This document shows, in pieces, positions 1,485-10,734 of a DNA stretch of 64,000 bases. The translations under genes and the position numbers were made by a program. The notes under the pieces were generated by a model. That model did not search any database and was not told the origin of the DNA. It saw nothing but the letters and a program-made list of their open reading frames with translations. This DNA comes from Microvirga solisilvae (lineage in GTDB: Bacteria; Pseudomonadota; Alphaproteobacteria; Rhizobiales; Beijerinckiaceae). Position 1 is the first letter of the stretch. Each line of letters starts with the position of its first letter. The DNA lies in NCBI RefSeq assembly GCF_022808595.1, contig NZ_JAKUCN010000003.1:62001-126000 (forward strand), written 5' to 3'.

Positions 1485-2375
1485 ATGGCCATCCGCACCC
1501 TCCGCATCGCAGCCCTTTCCCTCATCCTCGGTCTTGCCGCACCGCTCGCGGCCCAAGCCCAGCAGAATACCTCCATCGTCGAGCAGCAGCAGGCGGCCTG
1601 GGCCAAGGCGCAGAAGGTGGCCAAGGAAGGCCCTGTCTCGGTGCCGCTGGCAGGCCAGGTCGATTTCAAGCTGCCCGCCGAGTTCGTTTTCATTCCGCAG
1701 CCCGAGGCCGGGGAGCTTCTGCGCTCGTTCGGCAATACGCCGGGCTCCGACATGCTCGGCATGGTCGTGCCTGCGGGCGACGAGAATTGGATCGCCACGA
1801 TCCGCTTCGTGAAGTCGGGCTTCATCAAGGACGACGATGCCAAGAACTGGAACGTGGACGAGCTGCTCGAGAGCCTGCGCCAGGGCACCGAAGAGGATAA
1901 CAAGGATCGCGCCGCCCGCGGCTTCGCGGAGATGGAAGTGAAGGGCTGGGTGGAGAAGCCGAGCTATCAGGCCGATACCCATCGCCTCGTCTGGTCGGCG
2001 CTCGCCATGGACAAGGGCGGTAAGGAAGAAGACGCCAGCGTCAACTACAACACTTATGTGCTGGGCCGCGAAGGCTATGTGAGCCTCAACTTCATCACCA
2101 CGCCGGGCCAGATCGAAGCCGAGAAGAAACTCGCGCAGCAACTCCTGGCGTCGGTTTCCTATGTGAGCGGCAAGGCATATGCCGATTTCAATCCCTCCAC
2201 CGACCACGTGGCGGAATACGGCCTCGCGGCCCTCGTCGCAGGTGCTGCGGCCAAGAAGTTCGGCCTCTTCGCGGTGATCGCAGCCTTCTTCGCGAAATTC
2301 GCCAAAGTGATCCTGGTCGGTGTCGTCGCTCTCGGCGGCGCGGTGTTCAACCTGTTCCGGCGCAAAACGTCTTAA
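1485..2375 (+). CDS. DUF2167-family membrane-anchored exported protein
   Basis: The N-terminus from the ATG at 1485 is a clear Sec signal (MAIRTLRIAALSLIL to AAQAQ), so that start is preferred over an in-frame TTG at 1455. The mature part matches the DUF2167 pattern as I remember it, including a YNTYVLGREGYVSLNF stretch. The C-terminus has a hydrophobic segment at about 255-285 and ends in a basic FRRK tail, which predicts a periplasmic domain anchored by one C-terminal helix. The biochemical function of the family is unknown. The M50-type protease gene starts 11 bases after the stop, so the two are probably co-transcribed. Whether this protein is its substrate is speculation. Confidence 0.8.
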   Translation: MAIRTLRIAALSLILGLAAPLAAQAQQNTSIVEQQQAAWAKAQKVAKEGPVSVPLAGQVDFKLPAEFVFIPQPEAGELLRSFGNTPGSDMLGMVVPAGDENWIATIRFVKSGFIKDDDAKNWNVDELLESLRQGTEEDNKDRAARGFAEMEVKGWVEKPSYQADTHRLVWSALAMDKGGKEEDASVNYNTYVLGREGYVSLNFITTPGQIEAEKKLAQQLLASVSYVSGKAYADFNPSTDHVAEYGLAALVAGAAAKKFGLFAVIAAFFAKFAKVILVGVVALGGAVFNLFRRKTS

Positions 2376-2386
2376 GGCTCTTCATC

Positions 2387-3106
2387 ATGAAGCTGCTCCT
2401 TCTCCTTTTCGCGGGCCTCAAGTTCGGCAAGCTCTTCACCACTGGCGGCACCATGTTGGTGTCGGTGGTGGCCTATGCCTGGATCTTCGGCTGGTGGTAC
2501 GCGGTCGGCTTCGTCGGTCTCCTCTTCATCCATGAGATGGGCCACTACGCCGCCGCGCGGCAGCGGGGGCTCGATGTCGGCGCGCCGACCTTCATTCCGT
2601 TCCTCGGTGCCTGGATCACCATGAAGGACATGCCCGCCGATGTGGAGACGGAAGCGCATGTGGCCATCGCCGGTCCGTTCCTGGGTTCGATCGCGGCTTT
2701 CGGCGTCTATTTCTGGGCGCTCCAGACCGACAGCCGGTTGCTGCTCGCGATCTCCTATTCCGGCTTCTTCCTGAACCTGTTCAACCTGCTCCCCGTCTCG
2801 CCGCTCGACGGCGGACGCATCACGGCGATCATTTCTCCGCGCGTCTGGCTGCTTGGTGCACCGCTGATGGTGGCTCTGCTCTTCTATCGCCCGAGCCCGG
2901 CCTTGTTCATCGTCGCGCTTCTGGCAGCACCCCAGGTGTGGAAGGCCTGGAATTACGATCCGAACGCGGAAGAAAACCGCGCGTATTACGATGTGCCCAA
3001 CAAGGTGCGGGTGGAATACGGCCTGATTTATCTCGGCCTCACGGCCGTTCTCGCGATCATGACCTATCATGTTCACGAGATGCTGACGTCCGGACGTCCG
3101 TTCTAA
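2387..3106 (+). CDS. Site-2 protease family (M50) membrane metalloprotease
   Basis: This is an intramembrane zinc protease-like protein of 239 residues. The zinc motif HEMGH is at 49-53 (His49, Glu50, His53), and the third-ligand segment NLLPVSPLDGGR is at about 133-144, with Asp141 the expected ligand. Several hydrophobic segments surround both motifs. There is no PDZ or CBS domain, so it is a minimal peptidase of the SpoIVFB/rhomboid-associated type rather than RseP. It directly follows a DUF2167 gene, and a perfect hairpin follows it at 3109-3137. The substrate is unknown. Confidence 0.9.
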   Translation: MKLLLLLFAGLKFGKLFTTGGTMLVSVVAYAWIFGWWYAVGFVGLLFIHEMGHYAAARQRGLDVGAPTFIPFLGAWITMKDMPADVETEAHVAIAGPFLGSIAAFGVYFWALQTDSRLLLAISYSGFFLNLFNLLPVSPLDGGRITAIISPRVWLLGAPLMVALLFYRPSPALFIVALLAAPQVWKAWNYDPNAEENRAYYDVPNKVRVEYGLIYLGLTAVLAIMTYHVHEMLTSGRPF

Positions 3107-4900: not shown

Positions 4901-6334
4901 TCAGACTTTCCCGATCTCCCTGGGCCACAGGCTCGGAGCTTTCTTTCGGTTCGGGGGAACCGCCGGGTCGGAGGATTGGCTGGAGGATTCCTGACCAAGA
5001 GGGATCTCGAAGGAAATGTGGCAATGCCCGTTCCCATCGAAATGGATGCGCGTGCCGTACTCGGCCAGAATATCCTGGACGATGCTGAGGCCGAGCCCGC
5101 TCGAGGCCGGGTCGTTTCGCGATGGAACGCCCCTTTCGGGCAAACCGCCTTCGGTGTTTCCCGAAAAGCCGGGACCATCGTCCTCGACGATGATGCGGGC
5201 CATGCCGCCCACCCGTTCAACGCGAATGGTGACGGAAGACCGGGCCCATTTCCTGGCATTGTCGAGAAGATTGCCCATGACCTCTCCGAAATCATGGGGG
5301 TCCATGGCGATTCCCAGATCGGCGGGAAGCTCCGTGCGCCAGATGAGCTGATCGCCCCTGGGCATGTGCTGCATCAATCTTAAGATGCGGGCGATGGTCT
5401 CGTCCGCATGCGCATGATCGCCATGACCGACCGAGGCGCCGCTGGTTCGTGCGCGGGCCACCTCACGCTCGATATGGGCCGACAGCAGCTCGAGCTGTTC
5501 CTGCATCCGCGCAGCCGCATCCTTCAAGCCCGCCTGTTCGAGACGCCGGACTTCTCCTCCCAGAATGGTCAGGGGAGTCTTCAGCCCATGGGCGAGAGCG
5601 CCGGCGCGGTCTCGCGCCTTGCGCACGAGGTTTTCCTGGCGGTCGAGAAGCTTGTTGATGCTGTCGACGAGTGGCGCGACTTCGTCGGGAAAGCGTTTGG
5701 TCATGCGCCGGATCTGCCCGGTCTGCACCGCGTTCAATTCCTGTCCCACCGCTCGCAGCGGACGAAGACCGAGCCAGAGCTGCAGCCATGCGAACAGCAC
5801 GAGCACAATCGCAATGGGAATGAGAACGCGGGTTACGTCCCATCCGAAGGCCTGCCGCAGTTCGACGATCTGCTTGTGATCGAGAGCGACCGCAAGGCTT
5901 AAGGTGCGGGAATCGTCCGCCCCGCCGATGGTGACGTTTCGCTCGACGACATAAAGCTCCGCGCCATCAGGTCCTTCGACTTCATAGGCCTTCTCGCCAT
6001 CGGAATTCTGACGCGGGTCGGCCGCAGGCAGATCGGTGTCCCAGAGCGAGCGCGACCGCATGATGGGACGCCCCTGTTCCGAGACCTGCCAATACGCGCC
6101 TCCGTAAGGCTGATGATAGCGCGGGTCGGTCAGCCTGTGGCTGAGACCGGCTTCGCCTTCCGCTCCGAGCGCTGCGGCAAGCGCCGTCCAGCGGATATTG
6201 AGATCCTGCTCCACGTAGCGCAGCACCTGCCGCTCGAAGAACACCACGAGCGATGCCCCGGCGACTCCGATCGTTGCGACGATGGACATGATGGCGACAG
6301 CCAGCAGCCGCAGACGGATGGAGTTTCCTGTCAT
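4901..6334 (-). CDS. Transmembrane sensor histidine kinase (PhoQ/FeuQ-like)
   Basis: This is the inner-membrane kinase of the PepSY-regulator-kinase operon, 477 residues. The first membrane helix is at about 9-33, a periplasmic sensor loop runs to about 165, the second helix is at about 168-188, and a HAMP-like linker follows. The HisKA motif ALAHGLKTPL has His249. The ATPase N box (NLLDNARKWA) and G boxes (DDGPGFSG, GLGLSIV) are present. Its ATG overlaps the regulator stop by four bases (ATGA), so translation is coupled. Gene order and periplasmic loop resemble FeuQ/PhoQ systems; the signal is not evident from sequence. Confidence 0.93.
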   Translation of the reverse strand: MTGNSIRLRLLAVAIMSIVATIGVAGASLVVFFERQVLRYVEQDLNIRWTALAAALGAEGEAGLSHRLTDPRYHQPYGGAYWQVSEQGRPIMRSRSLWDTDLPAADPRQNSDGEKAYEVEGPDGAELYVVERNVTIGGADDSRTLSLAVALDHKQIVELRQAFGWDVTRVLIPIAIVLVLFAWLQLWLGLRPLRAVGQELNAVQTGQIRRMTKRFPDEVAPLVDSINKLLDRQENLVRKARDRAGALAHGLKTPLTILGGEVRRLEQAGLKDAAARMQEQLELLSAHIEREVARARTSGASVGHGDHAHADETIARILRLMQHMPRGDQLIWRTELPADLGIAMDPHDFGEVMGNLLDNARKWARSSVTIRVERVGGMARIIVEDDGPGFSGNTEGGLPERGVPSRNDPASSGLGLSIVQDILAEYGTRIHFDGNGHCHISFEIPLGQESSSQSSDPAVPPNRKKAPSLWPREIGKV

Positions 6335-6993
6335 GATGACGATGACTCCATGATGTAGCCGTGGCCGCGGCGGGTTCCGATCGTGTCCGAACCGATCTTG
6401 CGCCGGAGACGGGCGACAAGGGCCTCGACGGCATTGCTCTCGGGTTCGGCCGTTCCGTAGACGTGCTCCACGAGTTCGCTTTGCGGCACGACGCGATTGC
6501 GGTTATGCGCCAGGTACCGCAGCAGCCGGAATTCCAGGGGCGAGAGTTCGACGGCCCTGCCGTTGATCATCACCCTGAGGCTTCGCGTGTCGATGCGCAG
6601 CGCCCCGATCTCGATGAGCGGCGTGACATGACGTCCGACGCGGCGCAGCAGGGCAGCGAGACGCGCAAGAAGCTCCTCCATCTCGAAGGGCTTGGTCAGG
6701 TAATCGTCGGCGCCCGCATCGATCCCCTCGACCCGCTGGAGCCAGGAGCCCCGCGCCGTCAGAACCAGGATGGGGACGATGCTGTCCTCTTCCCGCAAGC
6801 GCCGCACGATGGACAGGCCGTCAAGCTTGGGCAGGCCGAGATCGAGGATGACGGCGTCGTAATCCTCGGTCGAGGCGCGAAACCAGCCTTCTTCTCCATC
6901 ATGGGCGATGTCCACCACATAGCCGGTTCGGGACAGGGCGCTCTCGATATCCGCGGCAATGGCCCGTTCGTCCTCGATGAGAAGAACTCGCAT
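6331..6993 (-). CDS. OmpR/PhoP-type response regulator
   Basis: The product is a DNA-binding response regulator of 220 residues. The receiver carries the phospho-acceptor Asp51 (VILDLGLPKLDG) and Lys101 (DYLTKPF). The C-terminal winged helix contains LSPLEFRLLRYLAHN and ends in RRGHGYIMESSSS. The start at 6993 is preferred because AGGAGG lies just upstream, MRVLLIEDE is the canonical N-terminus, and TGATG overlaps the PepSY stop. It is expected to be phosphorylated by the downstream kinase. The inverted repeat at 7584-7600 in front of the operon is a candidate site for it or for another factor. Confidence 0.95.
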   Translation of the reverse strand: MRVLLIEDERAIAADIESALSRTGYVVDIAHDGEEGWFRASTEDYDAVILDLGLPKLDGLSIVRRLREEDSIVPILVLTARGSWLQRVEGIDAGADDYLTKPFEMEELLARLAALLRRVGRHVTPLIEIGALRIDTRSLRVMINGRAVELSPLEFRLLRYLAHNRNRVVPQSELVEHVYGTAEPESNAVEALVARLRRKIGSDTIGTRRGHGYIMESSSS

Positions 6994-7535
6994 CAGCGCC
7001 TCCTGATCTGAAGGATGCGGTTGGCGCGGGCATCGACGACAACCTCGAAGTAGCGCCGATCCCGGGTCAGGACGAGAAATTCGTATTGCCATCCGCCGCT
7101 CCGGGTTCGATGCAGATCGACCTCCAGAACCTGTCCCGGCACTGCCTTGGAAACGGTTGGGAGAACGACGCCTAAGCCCAGGGCCCAACCATGGGACACG
7201 GCATCGCGGGCGCTCTCGGAGGAGGTGCTGCCCCAGCCGGACCAGCCTTGCGCATCATCGCCGCCTCGGCCTCGTCCCCGTCCGCTCTCGCCGTCGTCAC
7301 CTCCGCGCCCCCGGCCTCTGCCGCCATCATCGTTTCTGTCGTCGGAATCCCGGCCATCGCCGCGATTGTCGCCGCGCCCGCCGTCATCGCCGCCGCCCCG
7401 GCCGCTGTTGTCGCCACCTCCACCGCCGCTGTCGCCACCGCCGTCCTTGGCGAATGCAACGCTCGGCCAGGAGCCCGTCACGGTTGCCGAGACCAGCAGG
7501 CAGGAGAACAGAACAATGACATAACGCCGGATCAT
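6993..7535 (-). CDS. Exported PepSY-domain protein with Gly/Asp/Arg-rich linker (FeuN-like position)
   Basis: From the ATG at 7535, with GGAAGG upstream, the protein has a signal peptide ending in SVAFA. A low-complexity stretch of Gly, Asp and Arg follows (about residues 28-95; DGGRGRGRGGDD is typical). The last 60 residues form a PepSY-like fold (VLEVDLHRTRSGGWQYEFLVLTRDRRYFEVVVDARANRIL). The frame stays open upstream of 7535, but that part reads antisense through the divergent repeat gene and is not real. As first gene of a PepSY-regulator-kinase operon it may modulate the kinase from the periplasm, as described for rhizobial FeuN. That role is inference. Confidence 0.85.
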   Translation of the reverse strand: MIRRYVIVLFSCLLVSATVTGSWPSVAFAKDGGGDSGGGGGDNSGRGGGDDGGRGDNRGDGRDSDDRNDDGGRGRGRGGDDGESGRGRGRGGDDAQGWSGWGSTSSESARDAVSHGWALGLGVVLPTVSKAVPGQVLEVDLHRTRSGGWQYEFLVLTRDRRYFEVVVDARANRILQIRRR

Positions 7536-7583
7536 GAGCCCTTCCAAAGCTCTCCAGCATAGCACGCCCAGGCTGATATTTCG

Positions 7584-7600
7584 CTGACGGCCCCCGTCAG
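7584..7600. promoter_or_regulatory. Perfect inverted repeat in a divergent promoter region (candidate operator)
   Basis: CTGACGG (7584-7590) and CCGTCAG (7594-7600) are exact reverse complements around a CCC centre. The site lies in the 142-base gap between the divergent starts at 7535 and 7678, where it could serve both promoters. No T-run follows, so it is unlikely to be a terminator. Confidence 0.45.
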
Positions 7601-7677
7601 GTTCGCATGCCGCATCCTGGCTAGTCTTCCTCCGCATCGGCGCAGCTCCACCGCGCCATGGATGAAGGAGAGAGACG

Positions 7678-8283
7678 ATGTTGAAGCAGCTCAAGAACGG
7701 ATCAAGCCTTTTGGTGCTCAGTGCGGTCCTGATGTCGTTGGCGGCGAGCGTTCCTGCCGTGATCGCCGATGCGGCCCTGTCGCCGGCCATGGCAAGGGGC
7801 GGGGATAGCGACAATGACGGGGGCCGTGGAGGCCGCGGAGGTGACGACCGTGGTGGCGACGACCGAGGTGGTGACAGCCGGGGTGGTCGTGGCGGCGATG
7901 ATCGCGGTGGTGACAGCCGGGGTGGCCGGGGCAGCGATGATCGAGGCGGTGATGACCGGGGCGGTCGCGGAGGCGATGACCGTGGCGGCGACAACAGGGG
8001 CGGACGTGGCAGTGACGACAGGAGCGGGCGCTCGTCCGATGACGATGGCGGCCGGGGTCGTGGCAGGGGTCGCGGCGGCGATGACCGGACCCAGGTCGGG
8101 ACTCAGACTGACGACCGCACGAGAACCCAAACCCAGAGCCGGACACGGACGCGCGGTGCCGACGATGTCGCCGTCAGGCGTCTCCGCGCCGGCGCGGATG
8201 CGGCCTTCGACGATAATGGGGGGCGGGTTCCCCGCGACAGGCGCTTCGAGCCCGGTGACGACCGCAGGCTGAACGGCCAGTAA
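7678..8283 (+). CDS. Secreted low-complexity protein rich in GGDDRGG repeats
   Basis: The 201-residue product begins with a signal peptide (basic MLKQLKNG, hydrophobic core to about residue 30, cleavage near AMARG). It is followed by about 80 residues of imperfect GGDDRGG/GGDSRGG/GRGSDDRGG repeats, then a Thr/Gln/Arg stretch (TQTDDRTRTQTQSRTRTR). The C-terminus is more ordered, with RRLRAGADAAFDDNGG and DRRFEPGDDRRLNGQ. It is polyampholytic and probably disordered. Codon-third-position variation between repeats argues that it is translated. GAAGGAGAGAG precedes the ATG. It is divergent from the PepSY operon, whose first protein has a similar repeat. I do not know its function; cell-envelope, metal-binding or matrix roles are all possible. 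Confidence 0.75.
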   Translation: MLKQLKNGSSLLVLSAVLMSLAASVPAVIADAALSPAMARGGDSDNDGGRGGRGGDDRGGDDRGGDSRGGRGGDDRGGDSRGGRGSDDRGGDDRGGRGGDDRGGDNRGGRGSDDRSGRSSDDDGGRGRGRGRGGDDRTQVGTQTDDRTRTQTQSRTRTRGADDVAVRRLRAGADAAFDDNGGRVPRDRRFEPGDDRRLNGQ

Positions 8284-8298
8284 AAGAGGCTCATGACG

Positions 8299-8331
8299 CT
8301 CAGCTGCGGAGATCTTCACTCCGCAGCTGAG
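8299..8331. terminator. Perfect 13-bp hairpin between convergent genes
   Basis: CTCAGCTGCGGAG (8299-8311) pairs with CTCCGCAGCTGAG (8319-8331) around a 7-base loop, and is followed by GCTTT. It lies between the stop of the repeat protein and the stop of carbonic anhydrase, so it probably terminates both. Confidence 0.7.
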
Positions 8332-9039: not shown

Positions 9040-10734
9040 TCAGTGCGTCAGTTCAGTGAGCTTCTGGAGTTCGACATTGGCTCCGCAGAGGAGCACGCCG
9101 ATCCGCTCGTTGGGTTCAGGCTTATAAGCCCCTGAGAGCAAAGCCGCCAGAGCCGCCGCGCCACCGGGCTCGGAGGCAATGCGGTGCTCGCGCCAGAGCA
9201 TTCTCTGCGCCTCGCGGATGGCCTCGTCGGTAACCAGGGCCACGTGGTCGACGGTTTTCGAGCAGATCGAATGGACGAGCTCGCCCGTATTCCGGGCACC
9301 GAGGGAATCGGCTGCCACCGAATCCACGTCCACATCGACCGATTTTCCGGCCTGGAGGGCGGCATGCAGGGCCCGCGAGCCCTCCGGCTCCACGCCCACC
9401 ACCTTCACGCGGCCCGCCCACCAGCTCGCAATGCCGCTGATGAGCCCGCCGCCGCCCACAGCCACGAGCACGGTGTCGAGATCGGGCGCGTCCTGCTCCC
9501 ATTCGAGCCCCACCGTGCCCTGGCCCGTGATGGTGCTCTCGGCGGCGAAGGGGTGGATGCGCAGCGCGCCGGTCTCGGCCACATAGCGGTCGCAAGCCTC
9601 TTGAGCATCCGCATAGCGCGCGCCGCCGATCACCACCTCCGCCCCATGGGAGCGGATGACGGCGACCTTCGCCGGGCTCGAGATTTCGGGAACGAAGATG
9701 CGGGCCTTCACGCCGACCTGCTTTGCCGCATAGGCCACCGCCGCGCCGTGATTGCCGCCGGAAGCCGCCGCCACGCCCGCATCGGGAAAGGCGTTCGACA
9801 GAAGCGTGTTGAAGGCGCCGCGTGTCTTGAAGGAGCCCGCATGCTGCAGGAATTCGAGTTTCAGGCTGACCAGGCCTGGATGGCCGAAGGCCCCGGCCAG
9901 GTTCATCACCGGCGTGCGGCGGATATGGGGGGCGATCCGGACATGGGCCTCTTCGATGGCAGCGCGAGTGATGGTCATGGGGGATCTTTCAGGCGTTCTT
10001 TTGAGCGTCCAGATGGCGACCGGCAGGTCGTGGGCGTCGCGGCCTGGCGGGTCGGGAAAGGATTGGCCCCCACCTGTCGCGAGATCGAGCGCCACGGTCA
10101 ACCCCGCAAGCGCATCGAGCAGGTCGTCCGCCGCTGCTCCCCGCGGGGGCCGGGAGTCGATGAGATGGGTGGCCAGGAGCCCCGACTGCTTCAGAAGGCC
10201 TCGGCGCAGACGCATGCCGGGTTCGTAGGGGACGCTCTTCACCTTCTTGGGTTGGTCGAGCGCTCGGGAACCGTTCAGCGCCCAGAAGGCGAGTTCGGGG
10301 TGAACCTCGAACACCTTGTCCGCCAGTTCGGGGCGCGCCAGCAGCAGCGCATCGATCTCGCGGATCTTCGGGAAGATGCCGAAGCCCTGGCGCGAGACCT
10401 TGCGCGGCGGGTCGGAGGTGGCGAGCGCAAGTTTACAGGCCTCGCCGTAATCCTCCGCATAGACCGCCTGGCGCGAGGGGATGGAGAAAATGGAGGATTG
10501 GCGCTGGCCGAGGAGCGGGCGGATGAGCTGTTCGGGCACGCGGCCCGAGCCTTCAATGCGCTCCGGCAGGCCGATCGGCATATCGACGGCAATGATCGCG
10601 GGCTTTTCCGGCGCATCGGCGATGGCGGCGAGTGTCGGGGCGACGACGATCCGCGCGGATGCAGGATTGCCGACTTCCATCAGCGCCGCGATCCACCCAG
10701 CCCGGCAGCCATCCACGCCCGCAACCCACGTCAT
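9040..10734 (-). CDS. Fused frame: DUF429 nuclease-like domain plus threonine/serine ammonia-lyase
   Basis: One uninterrupted 564-codon frame encodes two families. Residues 1 to about 245 are DUF429-like (WVAGVDGCRAGW at the N-terminus, IPSRQAVYAEDY, a predicted RNase H-like fold). Residues 253-564 are a PLP fold-type II threonine/serine dehydratase, with the Schiff-base lysine in HAGSFKTRGAF (Lys303), ASGGNHG and the phosphate-binding GGGGLISG. The lyase would deaminate threonine or serine to the 2-oxoacid. An internal ATG at 9978 (residue 253, MTITRAAIEEAH) is where stand-alone lyases begin, but no good Shine-Dalgarno precedes it. It may be a real fusion, two cistrons from one frame, or a lost stop codon. 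Confidence 0.85.
   Translation of the reverse strand: MTWVAGVDGCRAGWIAALMEVGNPASARIVVAPTLAAIADAPEKPAIIAVDMPIGLPERIEGSGRVPEQLIRPLLGQRQSSIFSIPSRQAVYAEDYGEACKLALATSDPPRKVSRQGFGIFPKIREIDALLLARPELADKVFEVHPELAFWALNGSRALDQPKKVKSVPYEPGMRLRRGLLKQSGLLATHLIDSRPPRGAAADDLLDALAGLTVALDLATGGGQSFPDPPGRDAHDLPVAIWTLKRTPERSPMTITRAAIEEAHVRIAPHIRRTPVMNLAGAFGHPGLVSLKLEFLQHAGSFKTRGAFNTLLSNAFPDAGVAAASGGNHGAAVAYAAKQVGVKARIFVPEISSPAKVAVIRSHGAEVVIGGARYADAQEACDRYVAETGALRIHPFAAESTITGQGTVGLEWEQDAPDLDTVLVAVGGGGLISGIASWWAGRVKVVGVEPEGSRALHAALQAGKSVDVDVDSVAADSLGARNTGELVHSICSKTVDHVALVTDEAIREAQRMLWREHRIASEPGGAAALAALLSGAYKPEPNERIGVLLCGANVELQKLTELTH

Follow-up and report, generated by a model that had tools for sequence, protein, structure and literature searches.

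A disordered Gly/Asp/Arg repeat protein encoded divergently from a PepSY-like/two-component operon in Microvirga

Introduction

Genes for PepSY proteins lie near two-component genes >60-fold more often than expected by chance (PMC12714742). Here we describe such a locus in Microvirga solisilvae (Alphaproteobacteria, Rhizobiales), in which a PepSY-like gene heads a two-component operon and faces a gene for a probably exported Gly/Asp/Arg repeat protein. The locus lies in a stretch of 64,000 nucleotides (contig NZ_JAKUCN010000003.1, positions 62,001 to 126,000), hereafter the window, to which all coordinates refer, and was first pointed out in a reading of the sequence alone (the original prediction). 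What is said below of described systems is taken from the accessible parts of the cited papers.

In the DbfQRS system of Vibrio cholerae, as at the present locus, a small exported PepSY gene is situated directly upstream of the two-component pair, with which it is predicted to be co-transcribed; DbfQ binds DbfS with a dissociation constant of 30 nM, and the system feeds back on its own promoter, as would the module proposed here (PMC12714742). In a module of this kind the PepSY protein would be expected to bind the sensory domain of the kinase and favour its phosphatase state. DbfQ differs in its length of 135 aa, and the accessible part of the report mentions neither a low-complexity linker nor a divergent disordered partner (PMC12714742). 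In Sinorhizobium meliloti the small modulator gene feuN is likewise predicted to be cotranscribed with the two-component pair feuPQ, and the motif proposed for FeuP, TTCA-N7-TTCA (PMC3616915), shares its 11-bp period with GTCA-N7-RTCA at the present locus, from which it differs in the first base. The comparison with FeuPQ drawn in the original prediction fits this geometry; the likeness consists of gene layout and motif geometry rather than of protein sequence comparison. In Pseudomonas aeruginosa two small PepSY proteins, PA2658 and PA2659, belong to one two-component system, BqsRS (PMC4682146, PMC12714742), and the BqsR operator is also built as pentamer-N6-pentamer with one pentamer over the -35 position, although its sequence is different (TTAAG-N6-TTAAG; PMC4682146). 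Both of these PepSY genes are reported to precede the pair (PA2659 by two genes), unlike the divergent layout described below, and a disordered partner is not mentioned in the accessible text (PMC4682146, PMC12714742).

Results

The genes of the locus, their coordinates, the TGATG and ATGA-type coupling within the operon and the 142-bp divergent spacer are all as the original prediction had given them. The features are as follows:

6993-7535, minus strand: PepSY-like gene (180 aa, probably exported), with a signal-like segment, a Gly/Asp/Arg linker and a C-terminal domain
6331-6993, minus strand: response regulator gene of the OmpR/PhoB family (Pfam/NCBIfam), its start overlapping the PepSY stop (TGATG)
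4901-6334, minus strand: sensor histidine kinase gene (profile matches), its start overlapping the regulator gene
7678-8283, plus strand: divergent Gly/Asp/Arg repeat gene (201 aa, probably exported, disordered polyampholyte)
7536-7677: spacer of 142 bp between the PepSY-like gene and the repeat gene
7573-7588, minus strand: direct repeat GTCAG-N6-ATCAG, proposed as the box through which the response regulator acts on the PepSY operon
7556-7561, minus strand: TATGCT, a -10-like hexamer that follows the box at 11 bp and is unchanged across the 13 genomes
7596-7600, plus strand: RTCAG half-site oriented toward the repeat gene, from the spacer alignment
8299-8331, plus strand: terminator-like hairpin 3' of the repeat gene (1 found versus 0.3 in shuffles)

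The regulator has the domains of the OmpR family, a receiver (PF00072, 97 bits) and a winged helix (PF00486, 68 bits), and the top NCBIfam model of the kinase is PhoQ at 101.5 bits, far under its 497-bit cut-off. Export was judged by a hydrophobicity rule rather than by a signal-peptide program. As in DbfQRS-like modules, kinase and regulator genes lie no more than four genes away from a small PepSY gene, here one with a weak PepSY match.

Linkage was surveyed in 61 genomes, 37 of which, including that of M. solisilvae, are of the genus Microvirga. A close relative of the PepSY-like protein (E ≤1.8e-36) was found in 13 of the 61, every one a Microvirga, and the repeat protein (E ≤4.3e-13) in exactly those 13 genomes (13/37 of the genus). 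The two genes are divergent in 13/13 and separated by 138-145 bp, and all 13 genomes keep the overlap of the PepSY stop with the regulator start; the named records matched by the PepSY alignment were Microvirga in 11/11 loci. The divergent arrangement, which the original prediction proposed to seek in other genomes, is thus present in every carrier, and a search of the 37 Microvirga genomes for one that keeps the operon with the repeat gene absent or unlinked found none. One additional genome (G017) encodes a close relative of the kinase (≥65% identity), but the gene is truncated next to that of a transposase (PF13610, E 1.6e-36); tblastn of 5.5 kb found the kinase alone there, and the whole genome gave no match to the PepSY-like or the repeat protein at E 0.001. 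Judging from the occurrence of both genes in the same 13 genomes and the lack of both beside the cut kinase, there is little doubt that the repeat gene is a member of the PepSY/two-component module, as had been suggested.

Weaker PepSY matches include paralogous PepSY operons in Microvirga genomes G007, G008, G028, G031, G032, and G034, and such distant paralogues within the genus face a different divergent gene. The weaker matches of the repeat protein (E 1.6e-5 to 1.7e-4) were mostly other low-similarity frames, one of them being the PepSY gene of G019, and a search of the M. solisilvae genome with the repeat protein at E 0.001 returned a single gene, at this locus. Residues 131-201, toward the C terminus of the repeat protein, have a second match in one genome (60%, E 4.8e-5) that is located off the operon (G009:C56:35526-35750).

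Alignment of the spacers of the 13 genomes revealed a conserved core, GTCAG-N6-RTCAG, 52-53 bp ahead of the PepSY start, and CTGA[CT], which is the RTCAG half-site facing the repeat gene, begins 12 bp before the start of this box; direct repeat and inverted half-site are both found in 13/13. OmpR-family regulators commonly activate from direct repeats of 11-bp period placed right before the -10 element, and the arrangement in the spacer leads us to infer that the regulator encoded next to it binds this box. Direct repeat and inverted half-site together make it probable that the PepSY operon and the repeat gene are co-regulated. A scan for the sigma-70 consensus found none.

The box is not confined to Microvirga. 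With ≤1 mismatch it is present ≤150 bp upstream in 74/108 PepSY loci of the order, compared with 1 for the reversed box and 2.0 for shuffles (L185 and L216, with short upstream sequence, were excluded from the 110 loci described below), and in a sample of the class it is upstream of 11/68 PepSY loci (reversed 0, shuffles 0.9). In the order loci the mode of its position is 39-40 bp before the PepSY start, and position 13 after the box is A in 96%, which fits a -10 element. Transcription is therefore expected to start near the start codon, and the mRNA is possibly leaderless or near-leaderless. A 17-mer (≤2 mismatches) had 19 sites in the 13 Microvirga genomes versus 3 for the reversed sequence, 13 of which belong to the present locus and 1 to a paralogous PepSY operon. 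The 16-mer GTCAGCGAAWTRTCAG had 18 sites versus 2 for the control in 397 genomes of the order, including the M. solisilvae locus itself (L105) and PepSY loci L107, L110, L115, L117, and L119; at the other sites no PepSY gene was seen adjoining in the stretch inspected. A wider regulon in the M. solisilvae genome (17-mer, ≤3 mismatches; 7 sites versus 1 for the reversed control) was considered and rejected.

The order survey covered 397 genomes, 233 of them with a PepSY match at E 1e-6 (at least 150 matches). Among the matches listed, 110 loci were read, namely the first 30 and then most by E-value, some being omitted; the last batch was partly picked for a long open frame, with the divergent gene unseen at picking. 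A complete divergent secreted candidate was lacking in 27/110, some at contig ends, and these loci are dropped in counts of n=83 and taken as negative in counts of n=110; the nearest-frame rule used sometimes picks a non-exported protein (e.g., PRA isomerase). The regulator starts just downstream of PepSY in 86/110 loci, the PepSY protein has 95-130 aa in 81/110, mostly without a linker, and the divergent gap is 100-175 bp in 72/83. Among the 70 divergent frames outside the low-complexity set, 57 matched PepSY_2, 3 PRA isomerase, 1 Ni_hydr_CYTB, and 1 dihaem cytochrome c, while the 13 low-complexity divergent frames (chosen as such) included no PepSY_2 (0/13) and one weak Pentapeptide_2 match (E 0.0014). 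The usual layout is therefore PepSY_2, box, and PepSY-regulator-kinase. These loci have the same box and the same divergent layout as the Microvirga locus and differ from it in their divergent PepSY_2 protein and mostly linker-free PepSY.

What is new in Microvirga is that a disordered partner occupies the divergent slot in which a second PepSY is usually found, and a literature search, conducted mostly without subscription journals, found no earlier report of a PepSY protein with such a partner. Both states can coexist in one genome: low-complexity or Arg-rich pairs in G032 (L012), G266 (L211), and G047 (L125) are accompanied by a second operon (L031, L126, and L220, respectively) in which a short PepSY faces PepSY_2 (E 6.7e-17, 2.7e-23, and 3.6e-21). 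In L110 (G112; 1623-2588, plus strand) a PepSY operon with a perfect box faces a 321-aa RTX protein (PF00353, E 6.7e-39). Two divergent proteins, in L206 (G095) and L215 (G098), are part low-complexity and part PepSY_2 by eye, and may be intermediates. On the far side of the small divergent gene, L151, L164, L166, L184, L143, L144, L115, and L117 have a cytochrome b561-like gene (by eye).

A low-complexity tract in the PepSY protein is often accompanied by one in the divergent protein. Low complexity was scored as the fraction of the three most frequent residues in a 40-aa window, at ≥0.7 unless stated. In the order both proteins qualified in 8 loci, PepSY only in 4, the divergent protein only in 3, and neither in 68 (n=83; Fisher 1.8e-6); with n=110 the counts were 8, 11, 3, and 88, that is 8/19 versus 3/91 (Fisher 2.2e-5). 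Given as PepSY/divergent, the tracts are GGD/GGD in G042, poly-D with GR in G191, GSN/GSN in G266, GSG/SGSGN in G106 and G142, GRH-DER/GRD in G131, and Arg-rich/Arg-His-rich in G047 and G164. G192 and G098 also have a low-complexity divergent protein, but their PepSY tract forms a C-terminal tail instead of a linker. The composition cosine of 12 pairs was 0.80 for own partners versus 0.66 for permuted ones (p ~2e-5), and the match held with one pair per family (9 pairs, p 2e-5) and in the seven Gly-rich pairs (p = 0.008). Some of the 12 are <0.7 on one side (L176, L214, L222, L228, L278), and the near-duplicates L210 and L128 were omitted.

In Microvirga the repeat protein has a Gly/Asp/Arg tract in addition to a signal-like segment, and the C-terminal motif GGR..R..RFE.GDDRR is conserved. 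It had no match at E 1 in Pfam and NCBIfam, and hence none to PF13670 (PepSY_2), and its AlphaFold2 model has no fold (mean predicted local distance difference test, pLDDT, 46). The Gly-Asp-Arg repeat that had been described in a secreted protein is present, the "dozens" of units being too many: there are 9 D(D/S/N)RGG and 13 D(D/S/N)R. The net charge of the protein is -1 to +5 in 13/13 genomes, with 55 to 80 charged residues. After residue 40 the positive/negative residues number 36/36, 28/27, 40/40, 35/35, 40/40, 33/28, and 35/31 in the first seven genomes and 29/29, 30/29, 33/33, 36/37, 36/33, and 36/34 in the other six. The mean magnitude of the net charge is 1.3 versus 6.5 for independent signs (0/20000 draws), a statistic that is overstated because the 13 sequences are related and not independent. 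RTX calcium repeats were considered for this protein and rejected, as 13/13 have 0 GGxGxDx(hydrophobic)x motifs, with GGxGxD occurring 1-5 times in each.

The PepSY-like protein matches PF03413 at 21.2 bits (E 3.7e-4), below the gathering score of 24, and is called PepSY-like because of this score. Of its Microvirga orthologues, 13/13 match PF03413 at E ≤0.01 (best 1.1e-4). The protein has a low-complexity linker (~residues 30-100), net negative in 13/13 Microvirga genomes, and a PepSY-like domain (~104-180). AlphaFold2 gives residues ~111-180 as a confident domain (block means 91-97) of two helices followed by four strands, and the linker is mostly at pLDDT <50. A fold search with this model had YpmB (2gu3) as the top solved structure (probability 1.00, E 0.033) and none at 0.001.

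The linker and the repeat protein have a phrase in common, noted in the original prediction, in which 13/15 residues are identical; what the two share is composition alone, as the match is within the range of dipeptide-preserving shuffles. Their longest common substring of 10 was attained by 87/1000 such shuffles and 9/1000 plain ones, and the 13 identities of the best 15-mer by 13/150 and 1/150, respectively. The same codon is used at 5/13 of the identical residues, and since synonymous codons mostly differ, the phrase is not a recent DNA copy. Recent gene conversion between the tracts was also rejected, the four longest inverted arms (26-52 nt) being 71-77% complementary; two shorter arms (18-20 nt) are 85-89% complementary, and one of them extends into the spacer. 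Matching of the phrase at the species level was rejected as well (longest common substring 8.7 for own partners versus 8.5 permuted, p = 0.31). With likeness within species not above that between species, and with a charge-balanced repeat protein, the proposal that the repeat contacts the PepSY protein through the same phrase by charge was not upheld.

Outside these genes, an M50-family metallopeptidase gene is found near the sensor operon (2387-3106, plus strand). A 564-aa frame at 9040-10734 (minus strand) contains DUF429 (residues 6-230) and a pyridoxal phosphate-dependent enzyme domain (267-551), and is either a fusion or overlapping genes.

Discussion

Three features exceed chance: linkage in 13/13 genomes, the promoter box and, for the order, the repeated occurrence of pairs matched in composition. 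By analogy, we regard the locus as a module of the DbfQRS kind. Our proposal, to which we give an even chance, is that of an autoregulated envelope-sensing module resembling DbfQ and FeuN systems in which the second modulator has been replaced by a disordered partner. The phosphorylated regulator would bind GTCAG-N6-RTCAG, with the box in the -35 position, and activate the PepSY operon, and through the inverted half-site it would activate the repeat gene as well. The PepSY-like protein would be a periplasmic brake on the kinase, as DbfQ is on DbfS, and the divergent protein, in the slot usually held by PepSY_2, would adjust this brake. The two disordered segments may act in one place, by weak multivalent mutual binding or on a common envelope ligand, and a divergent protein in abundance would draw the PepSY-like protein off the kinase (or hold it there) and so set the feedback. 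Because several lineages repeat this pairing of compositionally similar tracts, joint action of the two segments is the most economical explanation, and the matched low complexity suggests that they cooperate. Direct action of the repeat protein on the PepSY-like protein or the kinase is a plausible idea that we hold only tentatively. A bolder idea, which we consider unlikely, is that matched disorder is a recognition code, in which GDR, GGD, GSN, poly-D, and poly-R tracts were acquired independently in several lineages and like-with-like contacts in the periplasm replace a folded second PepSY as an adjustable brake on the kinase.

Several results weigh against this proposal. Thresholds were set after the first pairs had been seen, and the 12 composition pairs were partly chosen by eye. 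With distinct genus states at 0.65 the association is weaker (6, 4, 5, and 37; p = 0.003), and in the four Arg-rich pairs the composition match is not above permuted (p = 0.21). The divergent protein does not reach 0.7 in 11/19 low-complexity PepSY loci, 7 of which lack a complete candidate (in L136, for instance, the opposite frame is AsmA-like by eye) and 4 of which are under the threshold. Six of the seven sites of the wider search in the M. solisilvae genome are inside or oddly placed to open frames, with no convincing promoters by eye. The sample of the class comprised 385 genomes (G078 is of the same family) and 68 loci besides that of M. solisilvae; 32/68 had no divergent candidate, and 4/68, with a stop inside the domain stretch, were kept. 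At 0.6 its counts were 3, 1, 6, and 26 (p = 0.04), the concordant loci (L275, L277, and L278, all Arg-rich) being from one genus and L242 being discordant; at 0.65 they were 1, 0, 6, and 29 (p = 0.19), and at 0.7 they were 0, 0, 4, and 32. In L256 and L285 a low-complexity PepSY has no divergent candidate. Two loci (L301, L308) added from families f11 (20 genomes) and f28 (15) have a short PepSY and, by eye, no clear secreted partner. As the class sample gives no clear replication, the low-complexity association rests on this order.

Other explanations deserve consideration. The repeat protein may be an output of the system, an exported hydrophilin-like polyampholyte that is switched on by the two-component pair and shields the envelope from desiccation or ionic stress, with its likeness to the linker arising from the Gly- and charge-rich nature of exported linkers. 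The variety of the genes divergent from this promoter (PepSY_2, the RTX protein in L110, His/Arg-rich proteins) is as expected of regulated outputs, and the near-neutral charge maintained in 13/13 with 55 to 80 charged residues also speaks for this reading; against it stand the co-variation of pair composition across lineages and the modulator-like second PepSY that usually fills the slot (57/70), and we regard this explanation as a real, though less favoured, possibility. Neutral drift, in which tracts grow by slippage in the tolerant exported proteins of some lineages with no joint function, appears unlikely to us. It would account for a shared phrase that dipeptide shuffles can reach and that is no more alike in partners of one species than in those of different species, and for the lack of clear repetition in the class, and high-GC genomes favour Gly, Arg, and Ala codons; however, since the genes are on opposite strands, a strand-wise base bias would push them in opposite directions, matched pairs recur at locus GC of 0.47-0.75, synonymous codons differ in the shared phrase, and the paralogous operons in G032, G266, and G047 have no tracts. 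Still more improbable is that the kinase senses a cation (Ca, Fe, a lanthanide, or uranyl) chelated by acidic tracts in the two proteins. The PepSY proteins UipA and lanpepsy do bind metals (PMC8963506, PMC11845868), BqsR responds to ferrous iron (PMC4682146), and one divergent gene encodes an RTX protein (L110), but the Microvirga repeat protein is charge-balanced and free of RTX motifs with the hydrophobic position, and other low-complexity pairs are strongly basic.

DbfQ is a direct modulator of its kinase, and the conserved divergent gene is a candidate for what adjusts PepSY modulators of this kind; the predicted regulator box makes its role testable. If the match in composition is functional, disordered segments would be partners in bacterial envelope signalling, for which a natural set of repeat swaps already exists.

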